A stretch of 64,000 nt of DNA from Leptolyngbya boryana PCC 6306 (GTDB taxonomy: Bacteria > Cyanobacteriota > Cyanobacteriia > Leptolyngbyales > Leptolyngbyaceae), in contig NZ_KB731324.1 in assembly GCF_000353285.1 (NCBI RefSeq), forward strand, positions 3,738,577 to 3,802,576, in the 5' to 3' direction. Shown here piece by piece: positions 56,705 through 64,000 of the stretch; positions within the stretch are counted from its first letter, which is position 1; each line of letters begins with the position of its first letter. Made by a program: the position numbers and the translations under genes. The notes under the pieces are model-generated. The model made no database searches, was not told where the DNA came from, and was given only the letters and a program-made list of their open reading frames with translations.

Positions 56705-57325
56705 TTAAGTCGCAACCTGAACTCGATCGCTCACCTCATCGCGCTGAATCAAAGGCTTAATCTTAGCAAGATCGACATAGCGATCGGCAATATTGACCAA
56801 ACTATCGCTCGTCATCGACTGCAAACTCACAACTTCAACCTGCACACCCCGATACGAGACACTATTCACAACATAGGTTAGATCTCCATCTCCACTGAGC
56901 AAAACCATTGTGTTGCAGTACTGCGCCAATTCCAGCATATCGACTGCGATTTCAACATCTAAATTGGCATGTTTCGATCCATCTGGGTGTTGAATCAAGT
57001 CTTTCGTCACCACTCGATACCCATGGCGACGCATCCACAACAGAAAGCCTTGCTGCTTCTCATTCCCCGGATCGACTCCCGTGTAAAAATAAGCGCGTAA
57101 CAGCCTTCTCCCGCCTGCTAGATATTTCAATAACTTCGAGTAATCGATCTCTAATCCAAGCTGCATTGCAGCATAAAAAAGATTCGAGCCATCAATAAAA
57201 ATTCCAACCCGATCGCTGCTGAGCGAATCCTTTGAACCAGACGGCGAGAATAAATCGCCTGAGTCGTAACCATCTTCCGGTTTGGGTGAAGATGCCCGAC
57301 GGTTTGCACGTGGCACAAGTTGCAT
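56705..57325 (-). CDS. NYN-domain (LabA/DUF88-like) protein
   Basis: A 206-residue PIN-like NYN-domain protein, a fold of metal-dependent RNases. The acidic motifs are intact: VGIFIDGSNLFYAA, the Asp in LDVEIAVDMLELA, and LLSGDGDLTYVVNS. The first 40 residues are a polar, disordered leader. The cyanobacterial founder LabA affects circadian gene expression. It has a paralogue, divergent and 800 bases away, at 58128-58754. Confidence 0.9.
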   Translation of the reverse strand: MQLVPRANRRASSPKPEDGYDSGDLFSPSGSKDSLSSDRVGIFIDGSNLFYAAMQLGLEIDYSKLLKYLAGGRRLLRAYFYTGVDPGNEKQQGFLLWMRRHGYRVVTKDLIQHPDGSKHANLDVEIAVDMLELAQYCNTMVLLSGDGDLTYVVNSVSYRGVQVEVVSLQSMTSDSLVNIADRYVDLAKIKPLIQRDEVSDRVQVAT

Positions 57326-58127: not shown

Positions 58128-58754
58128 ATGATCCAGTTAGTACGAGAACCGGACGGTGTGGAATCATCCCTTCCCCAAGCCCCGGAAAATTCCTCTGAAC
58201 AGTTACCGCTACTTTTTCCTGAAGAATTCGACGAAACAGATGCCCCAATCCATTTGCATCGAGGTCGATTGATGCTGTTTATTGATGGTGCAAATTTATT
58301 CTATGCAGCATCACAAATGGGAGTTGAAATTGATTATGCAAAATTGTTGAACTATCTTCAGCAGCAAAGTACTTTAATCTATGCGTTTTTCTATACGGGG
58401 GTTGATCCGAGCAATCTCCGCCAACATGCATTTCTCACTTGGATGCGGCGAAATGGCTACCGTGTGGTGACGAAAGATGTTGTTCTAAATCCATCAGGGT
58501 CGAAGCGCGTCAGTAGTATGAATGTTGAGATTGCGGTCGATATGATGCGCTTTGCACAGGATTGCGATACGGAGATCTTGATCAGTGGTGATGGAGATTT
58601 AGCCTATGCGGTGAATGCTGTTTCGCATGTAGGGACAAAGGTTGAAGTGATTTCTTTGCGATCGATGACGCACGATCGCTTAGTAGCGGTTGCAGATAAC
58701 TTTATTGATATCCTTAGCCTTCGTGATGCGATTCAGAAGTCTCCAAGATCTTAG
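58128..58754 (+). CDS. NYN-domain (LabA/DUF88-like) protein, paralogue
   Basis: A 208-residue NYN-domain protein with all acidic motifs: LMLFIDGANLFYAAS, MNVEIAVDMMRFA and LISGDGDLAYAVN. It shares most core residues with the protein at 56705-57325 (YFYTGVDP and WMRRHGYRVVTKD blocks). The N-terminal 40 residues are acidic and disordered. Its 3' end overlaps the convergent dynamin-like gene by 41 bases. A metal-dependent RNase acting in a regulated way is likely. Confidence 0.9.
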   Translation: MIQLVREPDGVESSLPQAPENSSEQLPLLFPEEFDETDAPIHLHRGRLMLFIDGANLFYAASQMGVEIDYAKLLNYLQQQSTLIYAFFYTGVDPSNLRQHAFLTWMRRNGYRVVTKDVVLNPSGSKRVSSMNVEIAVDMMRFAQDCDTEILISGDGDLAYAVNAVSHVGTKVEVISLRSMTHDRLVAVADNFIDILSLRDAIQKSPRS

Positions 58755-60309
58755 CGAATTGCGATCGCAACAGTTGCAACTGATGATGTCTTGGGATTTC
58801 AGATGCACTGGGTTTGAGTTCAAACTGCAAGATAGGGGTTGCGGATTGTTCGTATTGGTCGATCGCGGCTAAATTTAACTGACTAAAATGCGTGAAATAG
58901 GTTTGGATGAGTTCTTGATAGGCTTCTAATGAGTGCTGCGGATTAGGTCTTTTCATCGGTTGATCATCGAATAAAAATGAGGCACTTTCTCGCATTACAG
59001 AGGCGATCTTCCGACCAAATAGCAAATCGAGAGTGGAAGAGTCGTCACCCGATTCCTGGATCTCAACGAGTTCTTGCTTGATCGGTGGAAATGTGAGGAC
59101 AAGTTGTTTTGGGCGAGGTTGATCAAAGAATTCGCAAGCTTGATGTACCCATTTCACGAGTTCTTGCTGGTAGTCGATCGCGCTTCGCTTAAAGGCTCCA
59201 GTTTCCCAGCTTCTAAAAGTTTGAGTCTGCAAGGCGAGGCCTGCTTCGAGCTGGTATCGCGAGAGCAGTCGATCGAGAGTTAACCAATCGCGGAATTCTT
59301 GTAAGCTCGATTCAAAGCCTTTTTGAATCAATCCTTGTGCTTTTTGCTGAATTTGAAATCGTTGATTGAGCGTTTCTGTTTCAGTACGAATTTCTGATTC
59401 TAGATCGCTAATTTTCTGCTGGAGTTGTTGTTTGATTTGAACCGTGATCGCTTGAATTCGTGCCGTCTGAGTGGTGCGTGAATTTTGGAAATGAGCGGCG
59501 ATCGTTTGTAATGCAGATTCAAAAATCGGCAATCCTGATGCTTGTGCGGCAGAACTTTCACCTTTCAACCGAGCGCGTAGCGCTGGGAGTGCATCGACTC
59601 GATAGAGATTACTGATTCCGGGCGGTAAGTGCGATCGAAAACTTTCTGCGACAAATCTGAGGCGAGAGTAAACTTGCTTTTGATCGTCAGGATCGAGCAG
59701 ATTTAGGAAATTGACGACGAAAATCACGGTTGTAATACCGCGATCGAGTAACCAATCTCGAAGCTGTTCTCGCTCTCCTAATGTCATTAGCTTCCGACCA
59801 TCGAGCACTTGAATGATCACATCTGTGCTCAGGAGTTGATTTTTGACTAAAGTATCTTGAGCTTCGCGATCGTCGGTTCCAGGTAGATCAATGAATTCAA
59901 TCCCAGTTTTGAGAAAAGGATGGGGACAGAATACTTCAACAGATTTGACATCTTCGCGCATCCGCCGATCGTTATCTAAAATGGCAAACTGCTTGAGAAG
60001 GTCAGTTCCGGTTTCGGTAATCGTGCGATCGTCGTTAAATTGAATCGTGGTTTGTAGCGTCTCACCGTATTGGACTCGAATTGCTGCGCCTGTGGTTGGA
60101 ATCAGGTCAATTGGTAAAGCGCGTTCACCCAAGATTGCGTTCAATAAAGTAGATTTGCCGTAATTGAAGGGGGCGAAGACGGCGATTCGGAGATTGTCGG
60201 AGTCGCGTTGACAGATGAGTTCTAGGTCTTGTCGAATGGAATGGTTAGGGGGAAGTTCGAGTGTGCCGATCGCGGATTTGATAATTTCAATTTGTGATTC
60301 TATTGACAT
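58714..60309 (-). CDS. Dynamin-like GTPase A
   Basis: A 531-residue dynamin-family GTPase. The G1 P-loop is APFNYGKSTLLN, the switch II/G3 is IDLPGTDDREA, and the G4 region is VVNFLNLLDPDD, where the usual NKxD is not conserved. Residues about 280-350 form a coiled coil (IQAITVQIKQQLQQKISDLES). There is no clear transmembrane helix. ATG 60309 is chosen over a GTG three codons upstream. The neighbouring gene is a second, longer dynamin-like GTPase, 168 bases upstream. Such proteins bend or fuse membranes, often as heteromeric pairs. Confidence 0.85.
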   Translation of the reverse strand: MSIESQIEIIKSAIGTLELPPNHSIRQDLELICQRDSDNLRIAVFAPFNYGKSTLLNAILGERALPIDLIPTTGAAIRVQYGETLQTTIQFNDDRTITETGTDLLKQFAILDNDRRMREDVKSVEVFCPHPFLKTGIEFIDLPGTDDREAQDTLVKNQLLSTDVIIQVLDGRKLMTLGEREQLRDWLLDRGITTVIFVVNFLNLLDPDDQKQVYSRLRFVAESFRSHLPPGISNLYRVDALPALRARLKGESSAAQASGLPIFESALQTIAAHFQNSRTTQTARIQAITVQIKQQLQQKISDLESEIRTETETLNQRFQIQQKAQGLIQKGFESSLQEFRDWLTLDRLLSRYQLEAGLALQTQTFRSWETGAFKRSAIDYQQELVKWVHQACEFFDQPRPKQLVLTFPPIKQELVEIQESGDDSSTLDLLFGRKIASVMRESASFLFDDQPMKRPNPQHSLEAYQELIQTYFTHFSQLNLAAIDQYEQSATPILQFELKPSASEIPRHHQLQLLRSQFAKILETSESHHEG

Positions 60310-60476
60310 ATCTATCACTCAATCGATTTCTCTGAGTTTTAGAGTTGATTCCCCTAAAGTTAGGGGCAGAGTTGATTCTGCGGAGAAAAGCGATTCTATA
60401 TTCTGTGTTCGATTTCGACCGCGCTCAATACGTGAGGATTCTAAAACTAGAACGCTGAGCGCAGTCGAAACTTTCT

Positions 60477-62528
60477 CTATCCCAACAACGATCGATAAAT
60501 TGATTCCACCCGATCGCAGTGTTGATCAATCTGTGATCGTACCTTCATCAATCGATCGACTTCCACATCTCGATCAATCTGTCGTGATTCTTTCTGACGC
60601 ACCAAATTATCCAGCTCGGATTTTCTCGATTGGATATCATCGTCAATCCGTTGAATAATTCCGTCCTCATACGCCTCGAAACATTCCTGCACTGAATGAT
60701 AAATCGGCTGCCATTGCTCCTGAGCAACGCTCGGTAAATGATGCACTAATTCTTTTTTCACTGCTTTTGCAAACCGTTGGCGTGCATCATCGGCTTGAAA
60801 TGCTCCGATCGCAAGACCCGCAAGCAAGACTCCAAATGGGCCTAAAATCGAGCCAAACAAAAACGCAACGCCAACCGTCGCCACTAAATTCAGCGTCACG
60901 GTTCCAAAATCAAATCCACTAATCGCTAGTGCTGCTCCTGCCAAATTTCCGCGCGACAACGAGAACAATCCCATCGCCCATTTTGCCCAACTGGGTGCGC
61001 TCTCTTCTTTCTCACTAGAGTGCAATCGAGCTTGAATCCCAGTCATCTTTTCACTAATTTGTGCTGTCACTTCGCTGTAGCTTGCTCCGTGTTGTTCAGC
61101 GCGCTGAGACAATTCAGAGAATGCAGCTTTCAGTTCTTGATCTGCTGTTAATGCCCAAGCTGCACACTTATCATTCAGATACTGCTGAAAACCTTGCTGA
61201 GACTTGGCATTAAAGCGCTCTCGCTTCGACTCACTAAAGAAATCAAAAAACTGCAGCTCATTCGGCTGATATTTGAGAAAATCCTGTTCAAAGGTCGCTT
61301 CCATGCCCATGAGATACGTCCGAAACGAATCCGCGATCGCTCGTGCCTTTTTATCTTCTAACTGGCGAATCTCATCTCGAAAGCGATCGCGAATCTCTGA
61401 AAGCTTCTGAAACTCCGGTTCTACCGAATCAATGCGTTGCTTCAATTCTTGAAGATCTTGGTCTAATAACGGAATCCGCAAGTCGATTGATTCTTGCACT
61501 CGATGCTGAGCTTGCCGCGCCAAAGTTCTTGCTTTTCTCATCTCAGAAACAGCCCGTTCCTGCGTCAAGAACGTATTCAACGCTGCGAGAAATTCAGGGA
61601 ATCCAGTGCCATCTAGATTGGCATCCGGATTTTTGATGCGTCGTCTCAATGCTTGAATTGCAGAGATTTCAAACAGCCGCTCATCATAGAGATCGTAACC
61701 ATCAATGTTGCAATACTCGGCTAAGTTCGATCGAAAAACTCGTCTCAATTTCGATTCAGCCTGCGCCAACTCTTCAGCATCATCTGGATCAATCAAACTC
61801 TCTTTCACCTGATCCCAAGCATTGATCAAGAAGAAGACAGACAAGCCGCGATCTTTAATGTAATTCTCTAGATATCGACGTTCTCCAAGGGTGCAAGGCT
61901 GCGTCGATCGCATCACAAACAAAATCGCATGACAGTTGTGAATGTAGCCGAGTGAAAGTTCATTGCGCGCTTCAGTATCATTCAATCCGGGGCTATCAAC
62001 AATTTCAACGCCTTTCTCAAGTAGCGCTAACGGATACTCAACAACTGCGTGACTAATATCTGGAAACGCTTGCTGATTGTTTTGTTCTAATGTTTTTGCC
62101 TCTTCTGGAGCGATCGTATATTGCTCCTTAAACGTTCTGAAATCGGTTTGCAACGGCGACTTACCATCATTAAAATGAATCGTCACGCGCTTTTCAGTCC
62201 CGTATTTCAGCACGGTTAGCAAAGCTGTGCAAGGATTCACATCGCTAGGCAATAAGTTCTCACCCAGTAACGCATTGAGAAACGTACTTTTCCCACGTTT
62301 CATATCCCCAAGGACTAACAGGCGAAATACACCTGCTTTCAGAATCTCCCCTGCATTTGTCAAATCTTCGATCTCGCGTTCTAGCCCTAACTGACCAGAC
62401 GCGCCTGCACTTTCAGTCTCAACCTGGCGCAAAGTGGTCGAGATCGCGCTGATCTCATCTGCCATCGCAGCTCGATTCTGCGCCACTCGATCGAGATCGT
62501 CGAGAAAATTCGTTGTTTCAATTCGCAT
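60477..62528 (-). CDS. Dynamin-like GTPase B, membrane-inserting
   Basis: A 683-residue dynamin-family protein. G1 is LGDMKRGKSTFLNALLG, G3 is VDSPGLNDTEARN and G4 is FLINAWDQVK, so all three motifs fit better than in GTPase A. Coiled-coil stalk segments flank a double hydrophobic hairpin near residues 530-600 (LVATVGVAFLFGSILGPFGVLLAGLAIGAF region) that could insert in the membrane as the paddle does in BDLP. ATG 62528 overlaps the stop of the small upstream gene by one base. The gap to GTPase A holds nothing coding. Confidence 0.88.
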   Translation of the reverse strand: MRIETTNFLDDLDRVAQNRAAMADEISAISTTLRQVETESAGASGQLGLEREIEDLTNAGEILKAGVFRLLVLGDMKRGKSTFLNALLGENLLPSDVNPCTALLTVLKYGTEKRVTIHFNDGKSPLQTDFRTFKEQYTIAPEEAKTLEQNNQQAFPDISHAVVEYPLALLEKGVEIVDSPGLNDTEARNELSLGYIHNCHAILFVMRSTQPCTLGERRYLENYIKDRGLSVFFLINAWDQVKESLIDPDDAEELAQAESKLRRVFRSNLAEYCNIDGYDLYDERLFEISAIQALRRRIKNPDANLDGTGFPEFLAALNTFLTQERAVSEMRKARTLARQAQHRVQESIDLRIPLLDQDLQELKQRIDSVEPEFQKLSEIRDRFRDEIRQLEDKKARAIADSFRTYLMGMEATFEQDFLKYQPNELQFFDFFSESKRERFNAKSQQGFQQYLNDKCAAWALTADQELKAAFSELSQRAEQHGASYSEVTAQISEKMTGIQARLHSSEKEESAPSWAKWAMGLFSLSRGNLAGAALAISGFDFGTVTLNLVATVGVAFLFGSILGPFGVLLAGLAIGAFQADDARQRFAKAVKKELVHHLPSVAQEQWQPIYHSVQECFEAYEDGIIQRIDDDIQSRKSELDNLVRQKESRQIDRDVEVDRLMKVRSQIDQHCDRVESIYRSLLG

Positions 62529-62845
62529 TAGAACTTTTGCCCTTCGATAAAAACTTTGTAGAGCGCAAACGCGATCGCAACCACAATGAAGATAGTCGCC
62601 AAAGCACTTGCAATCCGAATCGCTGCAATCACGCCGATGACGATGCCAACAAAACTGGCAATCTTAATCGCATTGCGTTTCCAGCGCTGAAATCGCGTTT
62701 CTGGGGGCTGATGTTTAACGGTTTTATGGAATGGGGGCTGGTTCACTTCTGCTTCAAGTTCGCGCAGTCGCATCGCTAGCTCGCGTTCTTCAAGCTCTTT
62801 TTCACGCCGACGCAACTCTTCTTCTCTCGAATTGGCAGAACTCAT
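62528..62845 (-). CDS. Small coiled-coil membrane protein
   Basis: A 105-residue protein. The first 40 residues are a charged coiled coil (REEELRRREKELEERELAMR), then a basic linker, and two hydrophobic helices close the protein (ASFVGIVIGVIAAIRIASALATIFIVVAIAFALYKV, about 62-98). The start ATG 62845 has no strong binding site. It lies 70 bases after the Vipp1/PspA-like gene and overlaps the larger dynamin by one base, so co-translation with it is likely. It may anchor the GTPase at a membrane. Confidence 0.7.
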   Translation of the reverse strand: MSSANSREEELRRREKELEERELAMRLRELEAEVNQPPFHKTVKHQPPETRFQRWKRNAIKIASFVGIVIGVIAAIRIASALATIFIVVAIAFALYKVFIEGQKF

Positions 62846-62915
62846 GATCAGGATCGATTAACGTATGCCTCTTTAGCATTCCCACGATCGCAGATCTCTA
62901 AATCGACCTAAATTC

Positions 62916-63647
62916 TTACATTGACCGCCGAATCTCTGAGCGCAATTTCTCTAACTCCGGATCAACCGGCTGGCTCTGCGGCAATGCCCCCTGATTGATC
63001 TGACCTTTCATTGCGGCGAGTTCAGCATCGATTTCGTCACCTTGACCTAATGCCTCAAACCGCTTCTCCAAGCTATCTCCACTTAATTCTGCCATTGCTT
63101 CCGATCGCGCTTCAAGCTGCAAGACTTTATCTTCCATGCGCTCAAACGCATTCATGGCGCTACCCGTTCCGACTCGATTTAGCATTTCATTTAATTGCTC
63201 AGACGCTTTTGCCGATCGCGCGCGCGCAATGTACATATCTTTCTTCGTCTTCGCTTCTGAAATCTTGCTCTCAAGCTTCATCATGTTCTGCTTCAGCTGA
63301 GTGACGATCGCACCTTGCTGGCTTAGCTGCGCTTCCATCGCACTTGCCGTTTCTACGTAGCTTTTTCGTCGCGCTAATGCTTCTCTTGCCAGATTCTCAT
63401 CGCCTTTTTGCAGCGCTAACTGGGCGCGACGATACCATTCCTCTGAATTCGTTCGGGCTTGAGACGCTTGGCGTTCAGTGCGTTTTTGAGTCGCGATCGC
63501 TTGTGCGACAGCTTGGCGAAGCTGAATCAGGTCATTCTGCATGTCCAAAACGGTCTGCTCCAGAATTTTCTCTGGATCTTCCATTTTGCCAACCAGGTCA
63601 TTTAAATTTGCACGAATCACGCGCCAAATTCGGTCAAACAATCCCAT
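62916..63647 (-). CDS. PspA/IM30 family protein, Vipp1-like
   Basis: A 243-residue member of the ESCRT-III superfamily that forms rings and rods on membranes; Vipp1 supports thylakoids and PspA the stressed cell membrane. The N-terminal amphipathic helix MGLFDRIWRVIRANLNDLV is followed by a long coiled coil with family blocks EDPEKILEQTVLDMQ, ENLAREALARRKS and KISEAKTKKDMYIARA. After ELAAMKGQI comes a short linker (ALPQSQPVD) and a final helix (PELEKLRSEIRRSM), a shortened version of the Vipp1 tail absent from E. coli PspA (222). It is the first gene of the dynamin-containing run. Confidence 0.93.
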   Translation of the reverse strand: MGLFDRIWRVIRANLNDLVGKMEDPEKILEQTVLDMQNDLIQLRQAVAQAIATQKRTERQASQARTNSEEWYRRAQLALQKGDENLAREALARRKSYVETASAMEAQLSQQGAIVTQLKQNMMKLESKISEAKTKKDMYIARARSAKASEQLNEMLNRVGTGSAMNAFERMEDKVLQLEARSEAMAELSGDSLEKRFEALGQGDEIDAELAAMKGQINQGALPQSQPVDPELEKLRSEIRRSM

Positions 63648-63734: not shown

Positions 63735-64000
63735 TTAGGGTTTGACTTCTGCTGCAAGACCAAGATTTTTCAGTTCTTGAGCTTTACGTTGTGCTTCAGC
63801 CTGGTCGCCGAATGCTGCAAGCTGAATCTTGCCATCAGGACGGACAAACGCATCCGGGACAACTTGACGAGCTGCGGCTAAAGATTGATCACCTGTGAAT
63901 GGAGCCTCAACTTTATATTGATAGGCGTTATTTTCAGGAGCAGTCGTTGCGGGCGATTTGCTGACGCTGACGGATGGCAATAGCACTGAGGAGCCTGCTG
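63735..64000 (-). CDS. SPOR-domain protein, 5' end outside the window
   Basis: The last 88 residues of a longer protein; the frame is open to the right edge, with an internal GTG at 63986. Residues read as a SPOR domain, a fold that binds denuded peptidoglycan: YQYKVEAPFTGDQSLAAAR, VRPDGKIQLAAFGDQAEAQRKAQELKNLGL. The preceding VSVSKSPATTAPENN is a Ser/Pro/Thr-rich linker. It probably acts at the cell wall or septum. It ends 88 bases upstream of the Vipp1-like start in the same direction. Confidence 0.75.
   Translation of the reverse strand, partial: AGSSVLLPSVSVSKSPATTAPENNAYQYKVEAPFTGDQSLAAARQVVPDAFVRPDGKIQLAAFGDQAEAQRKAQELKNLGLAAEVKP

Follow-up and report, generated by a model that had tools for sequence, protein, structure and literature searches.

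A probable three-gene cassette of BDLP1, an unequal dynamin partner and a small putative membrane protein in Leptolyngbya boryana PCC 6306

Introduction

BDLP1 (NosDLP) of Nostoc punctiforme is a structural model for mitofusin-type fusion. Passages of Jilly et al. 2018 (PMC5827413) describe a tandem pair in which BDLP1 is "Tandem B" and a second dynamin beside it is "Tandem A", propose that the two form a hetero-oligomer, and call the in vivo function of BDLP1 unclear. In passages of Liu et al. 2018 (PMC6104087), the BDLP1 neighbour B2IZD2 is reported to have a DnaJ-like C-terminus, which, as suggested there, could also join this partner to BDLP1. Tubulation by BDLP1 and tethering by the dynamin pair of C. 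jejuni are described in vitro in passages of these papers. Here, we analysed a 64,000-nucleotide stretch (the window; G000:C1:3738577-3802576) of the 7.26-Mb genome of Leptolyngbya boryana PCC 6306, in which a gene for a BDLP1 ortholog (GTPase B) stands between those of a small protein and a second, unequal dynamin (GTPase A). We consider it fairly probable that these three proteins make up one functional unit, a cyanobacterial hetero-dynamin cassette. An initial annotation knew of no described system with this gene set; for the dynamin pair this does not hold, as the tandem pair and B2IZD2 had been described in the passages cited above.

Results

Organization of the locus

Four genes were confirmed, all on the minus strand and in the order initially annotated: a PspA-like gene, the small protein, GTPase B and GTPase A. 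Pfam searches identified one PspA_IM30 protein and two Dynamin_N proteins among their products. The three genes of the putative cassette are:

62528-62845, minus strand: small partner, 105 residues; N-terminal coiled-coil helix, linker with a TVKH-like motif, C-terminal hydrophobic helix or hairpin of about 50 residues
60477-62528, minus strand: GTPase B, the BDLP1/NosDLP ortholog, 683 residues; G1 GDMKRGKS, G4 NAWD, hydrophobic paddle at about 541-578 by hydropathy
58714-60318, minus strand: GTPase A, the unequal dynamin partner, 534 residues from a GTG start; G4 NFLN; without a J-domain tail

The PspA and small-protein genes are separated by 70 nucleotides (nt), and the small-protein and GTPase B genes overlap by 1 nt (TAATG), both as annotated. 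The 168-nt gap given before GTPase A needs correction, being 158 nt with the GTG start or 167 nt if translation starts at the ATG at 60309. A promoter and terminator scan of both strands of 6 kb was uninformative (6 promoter-like sites versus 6.7 expected, 10 terminator-like sites versus 6.0), and it placed no minus-strand promoter- or terminator-like site inside the gaps between these genes.

GTPase B is a full-length ortholog of BDLP1

GTPase B matches N. punctiforme BDLP1 (2j68) with a phmmer E-value of 6.6e-282 over residues 3-682, so that the homology takes in the helical trunk and the paddle. Pfam finds Dynamin_N (3.4e-34) and the bacterial dynamin helical domain PF21808 (6.1e-158). By sequence, therefore, GTPase B is the ortholog of BDLP1/NosDLP, that is, Tandem B.

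For comparison of motifs, open reading frames (ORFs) of at least 350 residues were assigned to the A or B type according to which gave the higher BLAST score (E 1e-30), giving 55 A-type and 88 B-type proteins, window included; L082 and L084, which hold no full B-type ORF, were left out of the B counts. One B-type row is gapped at the G-motif columns, and all 87 proteins with letters there carry N[AG]xD at G4.

More than one BDLP1-type gene was seen in L025, L027, L034, L053, L063, L064, L080 and L081, with up to three after one small protein (L063, L080). The record of L080 (JAAUUT010000006.1) is titled Candidatus Gracilibacteria; its arrangement is that of Hydrococcus Prado102 (L063), and the contig may be cyanobacterial and its bin mislabelled.

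The small protein and GTPase A accompany BDLP1

Three samples were used: 79 loci, retrieved with exact peptide patterns taken from BDLP1 of the window (the best 80 of 89 stretches) and hence biased to close relatives; 42 genomes of the family; and one draw of 146 genomes from the phylum, which is free of that bias. In the draw, matches were taken at E 1e-100 for BDLP1, 1e-5 for the small protein, and 1e-60 for GTPase A and for the PspA family.

BDLP1 was found in 15 of the 146 drawn genomes. The small protein occurs in 18, comprising all 15 with BDLP1, where it is adjacent and on the same strand, and 3 of the 131 without. GTPase A occurs in 14 of the 15 genomes with BDLP1 and in none of the 131 without; in 13 of these 14 it lies directly downstream of BDLP1, and in G032 on another contig. 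Fisher tests of co-occurrence with BDLP1, which ignore the relatedness of the genomes, gave p values of 8e-18 for the small protein and 1e-18 for GTPase A. The initial annotation, which grouped two unequal dynamins and a small membrane protein, is thus borne out in this respect, with the latter as a frequent companion.

Furthermore, BDLP1 matches at E 1e-100 were found in 11 of the 42 family genomes, with at least 66% identity in 8 of them, and GTPase A is present in exactly those 8; in the other three, where the only BDLP is a diverged one (52-60%), GTPase A and the small protein are both lacking. In five family genomes, GTPase A lies outside the cassette: 1.3 Mb off or on another contig in G015, G037, G028 and G032, amid genes not common between them, and on a different short contig of a fragmented draft in G014. 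Since GTPase A is present with BDLP1 although unlinked, their co-occurrence is not merely linkage.

Among the 79 loci, the small protein was found in 55, and in 53 of the 70 with at least 1 kb upstream. Counting the window, all 56 copies share the strand of the dynamins, and 44 of them end 2-36 nt ahead of the first dynamin ORF. GTPase A follows GTPase B in the window and 54 loci, and the full order small protein, B, A is kept in 46 sequences (45 loci and the window).

The three drawn genomes with the small protein and without BDLP1 are G104, G143 and G063. The first two keep BDLP1 and GTPase A remnants beside it; the copy in G063 has two stops, and no dynamin match was found within the 7 kb taken. 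The respective loci (L142, L143 and L144) are decayed cassettes, in two of which the small protein outlives the lost BDLP1 and GTPase A, while in the third it is itself broken.

GTPase A has an altered G4 motif

GTPase A carries a Dynamin_N domain (6.6e-26), and among solved structures the closest to it in sequence is BDLP1 (1.2e-22, residues 42-279). As it has the G domain of a dynamin and its gene adjoins that of a BDLP1 ortholog, it is assigned to the Tandem A/B2IZD2 type. The AlphaFold model, built with 18 sequences, has a pLDDT of 78.6 and a pTM of 0.54, with residues 418-459 below 50. Its top Foldseek match is BDLP (2j69, E 2.6e-20), with query TM-scores of 0.27-0.45 in the list, which makes the domain arrangement unreliable.

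The non-canonical G4 motif noticed initially is real: the window has N-F-L-N, and NFxN is present in 55 of 55 A-type proteins seen. The P-loop GKST and the DLPG motif are likewise invariant in all 55, and the switch threonine is found in 54 or 55. The first P-loop glycine is replaced by alanine in 9 of the 55, the window among them. In Ras-like GTPases, the G4 aspartate reads guanine, and its change to asparagine moves the preference to xanthine. Because this residue is fixed as asparagine in the A type, GTPase A probably acts as a structural or regulatory subunit whose preference for guanine is weak or altered.

A glycine-rich hydrophobic stretch (GWLLGGPVGAAV-like) at about residues 430-455 is present in many of the 18 aligned A proteins, and in this alignment it is lost or degenerate in those of the window and Leptolyngbya Prado105; the AlphaFold model of the window protein has low confidence in this region.

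A J-domain motif ends 39 of the 55 A-type proteins, with HPD proper in 38; Pfam DnaJ was found in 6 of 18 scanned (best 1.6e-15). The J-tailed proteins, seen in L026, L028-L030, L032, L035 and other heterocystous-type loci, all fall within one 40-row clade of heterocystous-type lineages, as read from record titles and the families in the tree; the fortieth row is a short ORF. On this tree the tail was gained once, in heterocystous lineages. The 15 A-type proteins outside the clade lack a J tail, yet are encoded beside BDLP1, suggesting that the tail is more likely accessory, for example for DnaK, than a general assembly domain. A C-terminal DnaJ-like domain is therefore not a defining feature of the wider A-type (Tandem A/B2IZD2) family. 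As a feature of the present locus it was rejected, being absent from the window's GTPase A.

The small protein is predicted to be helical and hydrophobic at its C-terminus

AlphaFold predicts a helix at residues 2-34 and one continuous helix at 51-101 (mean pLDDT 81). Hydropathy analysis of orthologs in L018, L024, L025, L063 and L080 shows two adjacent 19-residue hydrophobic stretches. The two closing hydrophobic helices of the initial annotation are therefore a plausible reading of a segment that may be one helix or a hairpin. The linker has a near-invariant threonine, often with KH.

DUF3040 (PF11239) is matched at E 0.01 or better by 17 of 25 orthologs (best 1e-7). The window protein, at E 0.0053 and 17.4 bits, is below the Pfam gathering threshold of 24.7 and was not assigned to this family. 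Our search found no open-licence paper joining DUF3040 with a dynamin.

In 9 of the 79 loci, a protein of about 179 residues with four transmembrane segments is encoded near BDLP1 (L018:9409-9963, L019:4815-5345, L023:9389-9919, L063:12097-12636, L081:9053-9604 and others), in four of them without the small protein (L019, L023, L081 and L087). It is absent from the window, and four members scanned gave no Pfam match.

The PspA gene is probably a lineage-specific neighbour

The genes flanking the cassette in the window include:

62916-63647, minus strand: PspA-type PspA/IM30 (bacterial ESCRT-III) gene, 243 residues; PF04012 5.5e-62; a neighbour, probably outside the cassette
63735-63986, minus strand: end of a SPOR-domain gene; PF05036 1.8e-4; often upstream of PspA in relatives
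58128-58754, plus strand: NYN-domain gene; PF01936 3.3e-28; converges on GTPase A with a 41-nt overlap

The window PspA protein matches PspA_IM30 over residues 2-216 (profile positions 1-217 of 220) and thus belongs to the PspA/IM30 family. Against 6zvr it scores 247.7 bits versus 320.7 bits for the other copy of the genome (G000:C1:201252), which outscores it on every Vipp1 chain listed for both. By these scores, the window protein is a PspA-type paralog and not Vipp1 proper, and the Vipp1-like copy is the one at C1:201252.

The initial annotation had made this ESCRT-III protein part of a module and expected the four genes to stay together in relatives. For PspA this expectation fails. PspA is found in only one of the 79 BDLP1 loci (L011, Leptolyngbya Prado105), some flanks being short. 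Of the 42 family genomes, 41 have a PspA-family match, which in 34 reaches at least 68% identity to the window protein over most of the length, and PspA adjoins the cassette in only two, that of the window (G000) and G022, whose contig is L011. All 15 drawn genomes with BDLP1 have a PspA-family match; it is beside BDLP1 in the window genome only, and in the other 14 the two are on separate contigs or some 0.9 Mb or further apart. Moreover, the adjacency is missing in six of the seven congeneric genomes, where one gene lies downstream of PspA in G017, G018 and G021, a second in G019 and G020, and a third in G023; in another genus, G029 and G030 have a fourth at this place. Flanking genes on both sides are also common to the two genomes that show the four-gene order, so that lack of rearrangement explains the link, and PspA is probably a lineage-specific neighbour. 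On these neighbourhoods in the 79 loci and the 42 family and 146 drawn genomes, PspA was rejected as a partner of the dynamins.

In 29 loci of relatives (L091-L119), a SPOR match by tblastn lies no more than 1.5 kb upstream of PspA in 24, and a second PspA-family gene is within 1.5 kb in 5. Of the 61 phylum genomes that gave a match, 26 have such a second gene beside PspA (coordinates read by eye). PspA thus keeps a SPOR match upstream, whereas its downstream neighbour varies within one genus.

On the 3' side of the cassette are two NYN-domain genes (56705-57325 and 58128-58754), the nearer of which has six matches in the genome at E 1e-20. Its best orthologs in G017, G018, G021 and G023 are away from PspA, while in G022 the two are adjacent, as in the window.

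Discussion

In the reading we favour, the small protein, BDLP1 and GTPase A act as one unit. The small protein, most likely inserted in the membrane through the hydrophobic segment at its C-terminus, would recruit or nucleate the dynamins via its coiled coil. BDLP1 would insert its paddle and, with GTP, tubulate or tether the bilayer for fusion or repair. GTPase A would be the heterotypic partner that assembles with BDLP1 on the membrane and regulates assembly. The sequences show the gene identities, the joint occurrence of the three genes (for A and B also when unlinked) and an NFxN without exception in the proteins seen; complex formation, membrane anchoring, the behaviour towards nucleotides and a role in fusion or repair are what we infer.

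A more detailed version is offered tentatively, as we hold it to be rather improbable as a whole. In it, the BDLP1 machine is a complex of three proteins: a dedicated coiled-coil adaptor anchored in the membrane and, nucleated by it, a hetero-polymer of two dynamins. One of these uses GTP (NAWD), and the other has the G4 asparagine seen in all 55 A-type proteins, so that the two would differ in nucleotide use (for GTPase A, no guanine selection or a xanthine-type preference). A J domain would later have been fused to GTPase A in heterocystous lineages so that Hsp70 takes the coat apart, by analogy with auxilin and Hsc70, which take the clathrin coat apart.

Several observations weigh against a three-protein unit. 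G021 and G037 have A and B without the small protein, which is also missing from 17 of the 70 loci with at least 1 kb upstream (the protein with four transmembrane segments being nearby in four); it is hence not strictly required. Weak extra matches to it (G065:C100 and G049:C96, E about 1e-6) are not beside BDLP1. Of the 67 loci, window included, that extend 2.5 kb or more downstream, 13 have no GTPase A, and some of the 13 are from genomes in which it is unlinked. The draft genome G089 lacks it too. The p values overstate the evidence because the genomes are related. Moreover, for GTPase A of this species, which lacks the glycine-rich hydrophobic stretch, contact with the membrane is doubtful.

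Three other explanations were considered. The dynamins might be independent, their operon linkage reflecting shared regulation and GTPase A being a decaying paralog. The loss of the paddle-like stretch and the absence of the J tail in the window and Prado105, NFxN being off the GTP consensus, and the first P-loop glycine being replaced in some members, the window included, are all compatible with decay. However, GKST and DLPG are invariant in all 55 A proteins, GTPase A co-occurs with BDLP1 even when unlinked, and an invariant NFxN is not expected of a decaying protein; we regard this explanation as unlikely. Slightly less likely still is an anti-phage dynamin system related to LeoA/LeoBC (the Eleos system). 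PADLOC gives moderate matches to LeoA (4.1e-12 for A, 2.5e-14 for B) and LeoBC (1.6e-8 and 5.4e-13), and the patchy occurrence in the family, together with the decayed copies, would suit defence. Against this, the match of GTPase B to BDLP1 is far above its LeoA score, and a gene of one family, PALP in the two cases checked, lies 0.5-4.0 kb upstream of BDLP1 in 25 loci, a stable site unlike that of a roaming defence island.

We give least credit to the module of four proteins proposed initially, with the ESCRT-III protein (PspA/Vipp1) and the two dynamins working together in membrane repair, and judge it very improbable. It has in its favour the common strand, the 70-nt gap with no terminator-like site on that strand, the order retained in G022 (Prado105), and the remodelling of membranes by both protein types, as described in passages of PMC9950537. 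However, the adjacency is confined to one locus, two family genomes and one drawn BDLP1 genome at the sample sizes given above. Three different genes follow PspA in the six other congeners, and the shared flanks of the two four-gene genomes make lack of rearrangement a sufficient cause. The recurring neighbours of PspA are instead the SPOR gene and a second PspA-family gene. Removing PspA from the picture avoids a misleading ESCRT-dynamin story.

For BDLP1 as a model of mitofusin-type fusion, our data point to two steady companions: GTPase A, kept together with it even when unlinked, and the small protein. They also suggest that the DnaJ-like tail of some A-type proteins is not a general assembly domain.

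Comparison with known systems

The closest described system is N. punctiforme BDLP1 (2j68, 2j69, 2w6d) with B2IZD2, to the first of which GTPase B corresponds over its full length. In Nostoc loci, the C-terminus of A orthologs is a J domain, as reported for B2IZD2; the window's GTPase A has none. GTPase A is likened to B2IZD2 by its position and the J tail of its orthologs, not by the sequence of B2IZD2 itself. In the text of Jilly et al. 2018 (PMC5827413), Tandem A is upstream of the BDLP1 gene, whereas here and in 54 loci A comes after B. Neither the small protein nor the NFxN G4 is mentioned in the passages of Jilly et al. 2018 and Liu et al. 2018 drawn on here, which says nothing of the literature at large.

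Two other families touch this locus. The window PspA protein is a clear PspA_IM30 member that is less Vipp1-like than the other copy of the genome, and DUF3040 reaches most of the small-protein orthologs while the window protein stays under its cut-off.

C. jejuni Cj-DLP1/Cj-DLP2 (5owv, 5oxf), in passages of PMC6104087, are likewise a side-by-side unequal dynamin pair. They rank next after BDLP1 by sequence and fold, although distant in sequence (E about 1e-8 to 1e-12), and at G4 the C. jejuni chain in the alignment reads T-K-A-D, unlike the N-F-L-N of GTPase A. The dynamin pair is thus already known, and the under-noticed member of the cassette is the third, the small protein.

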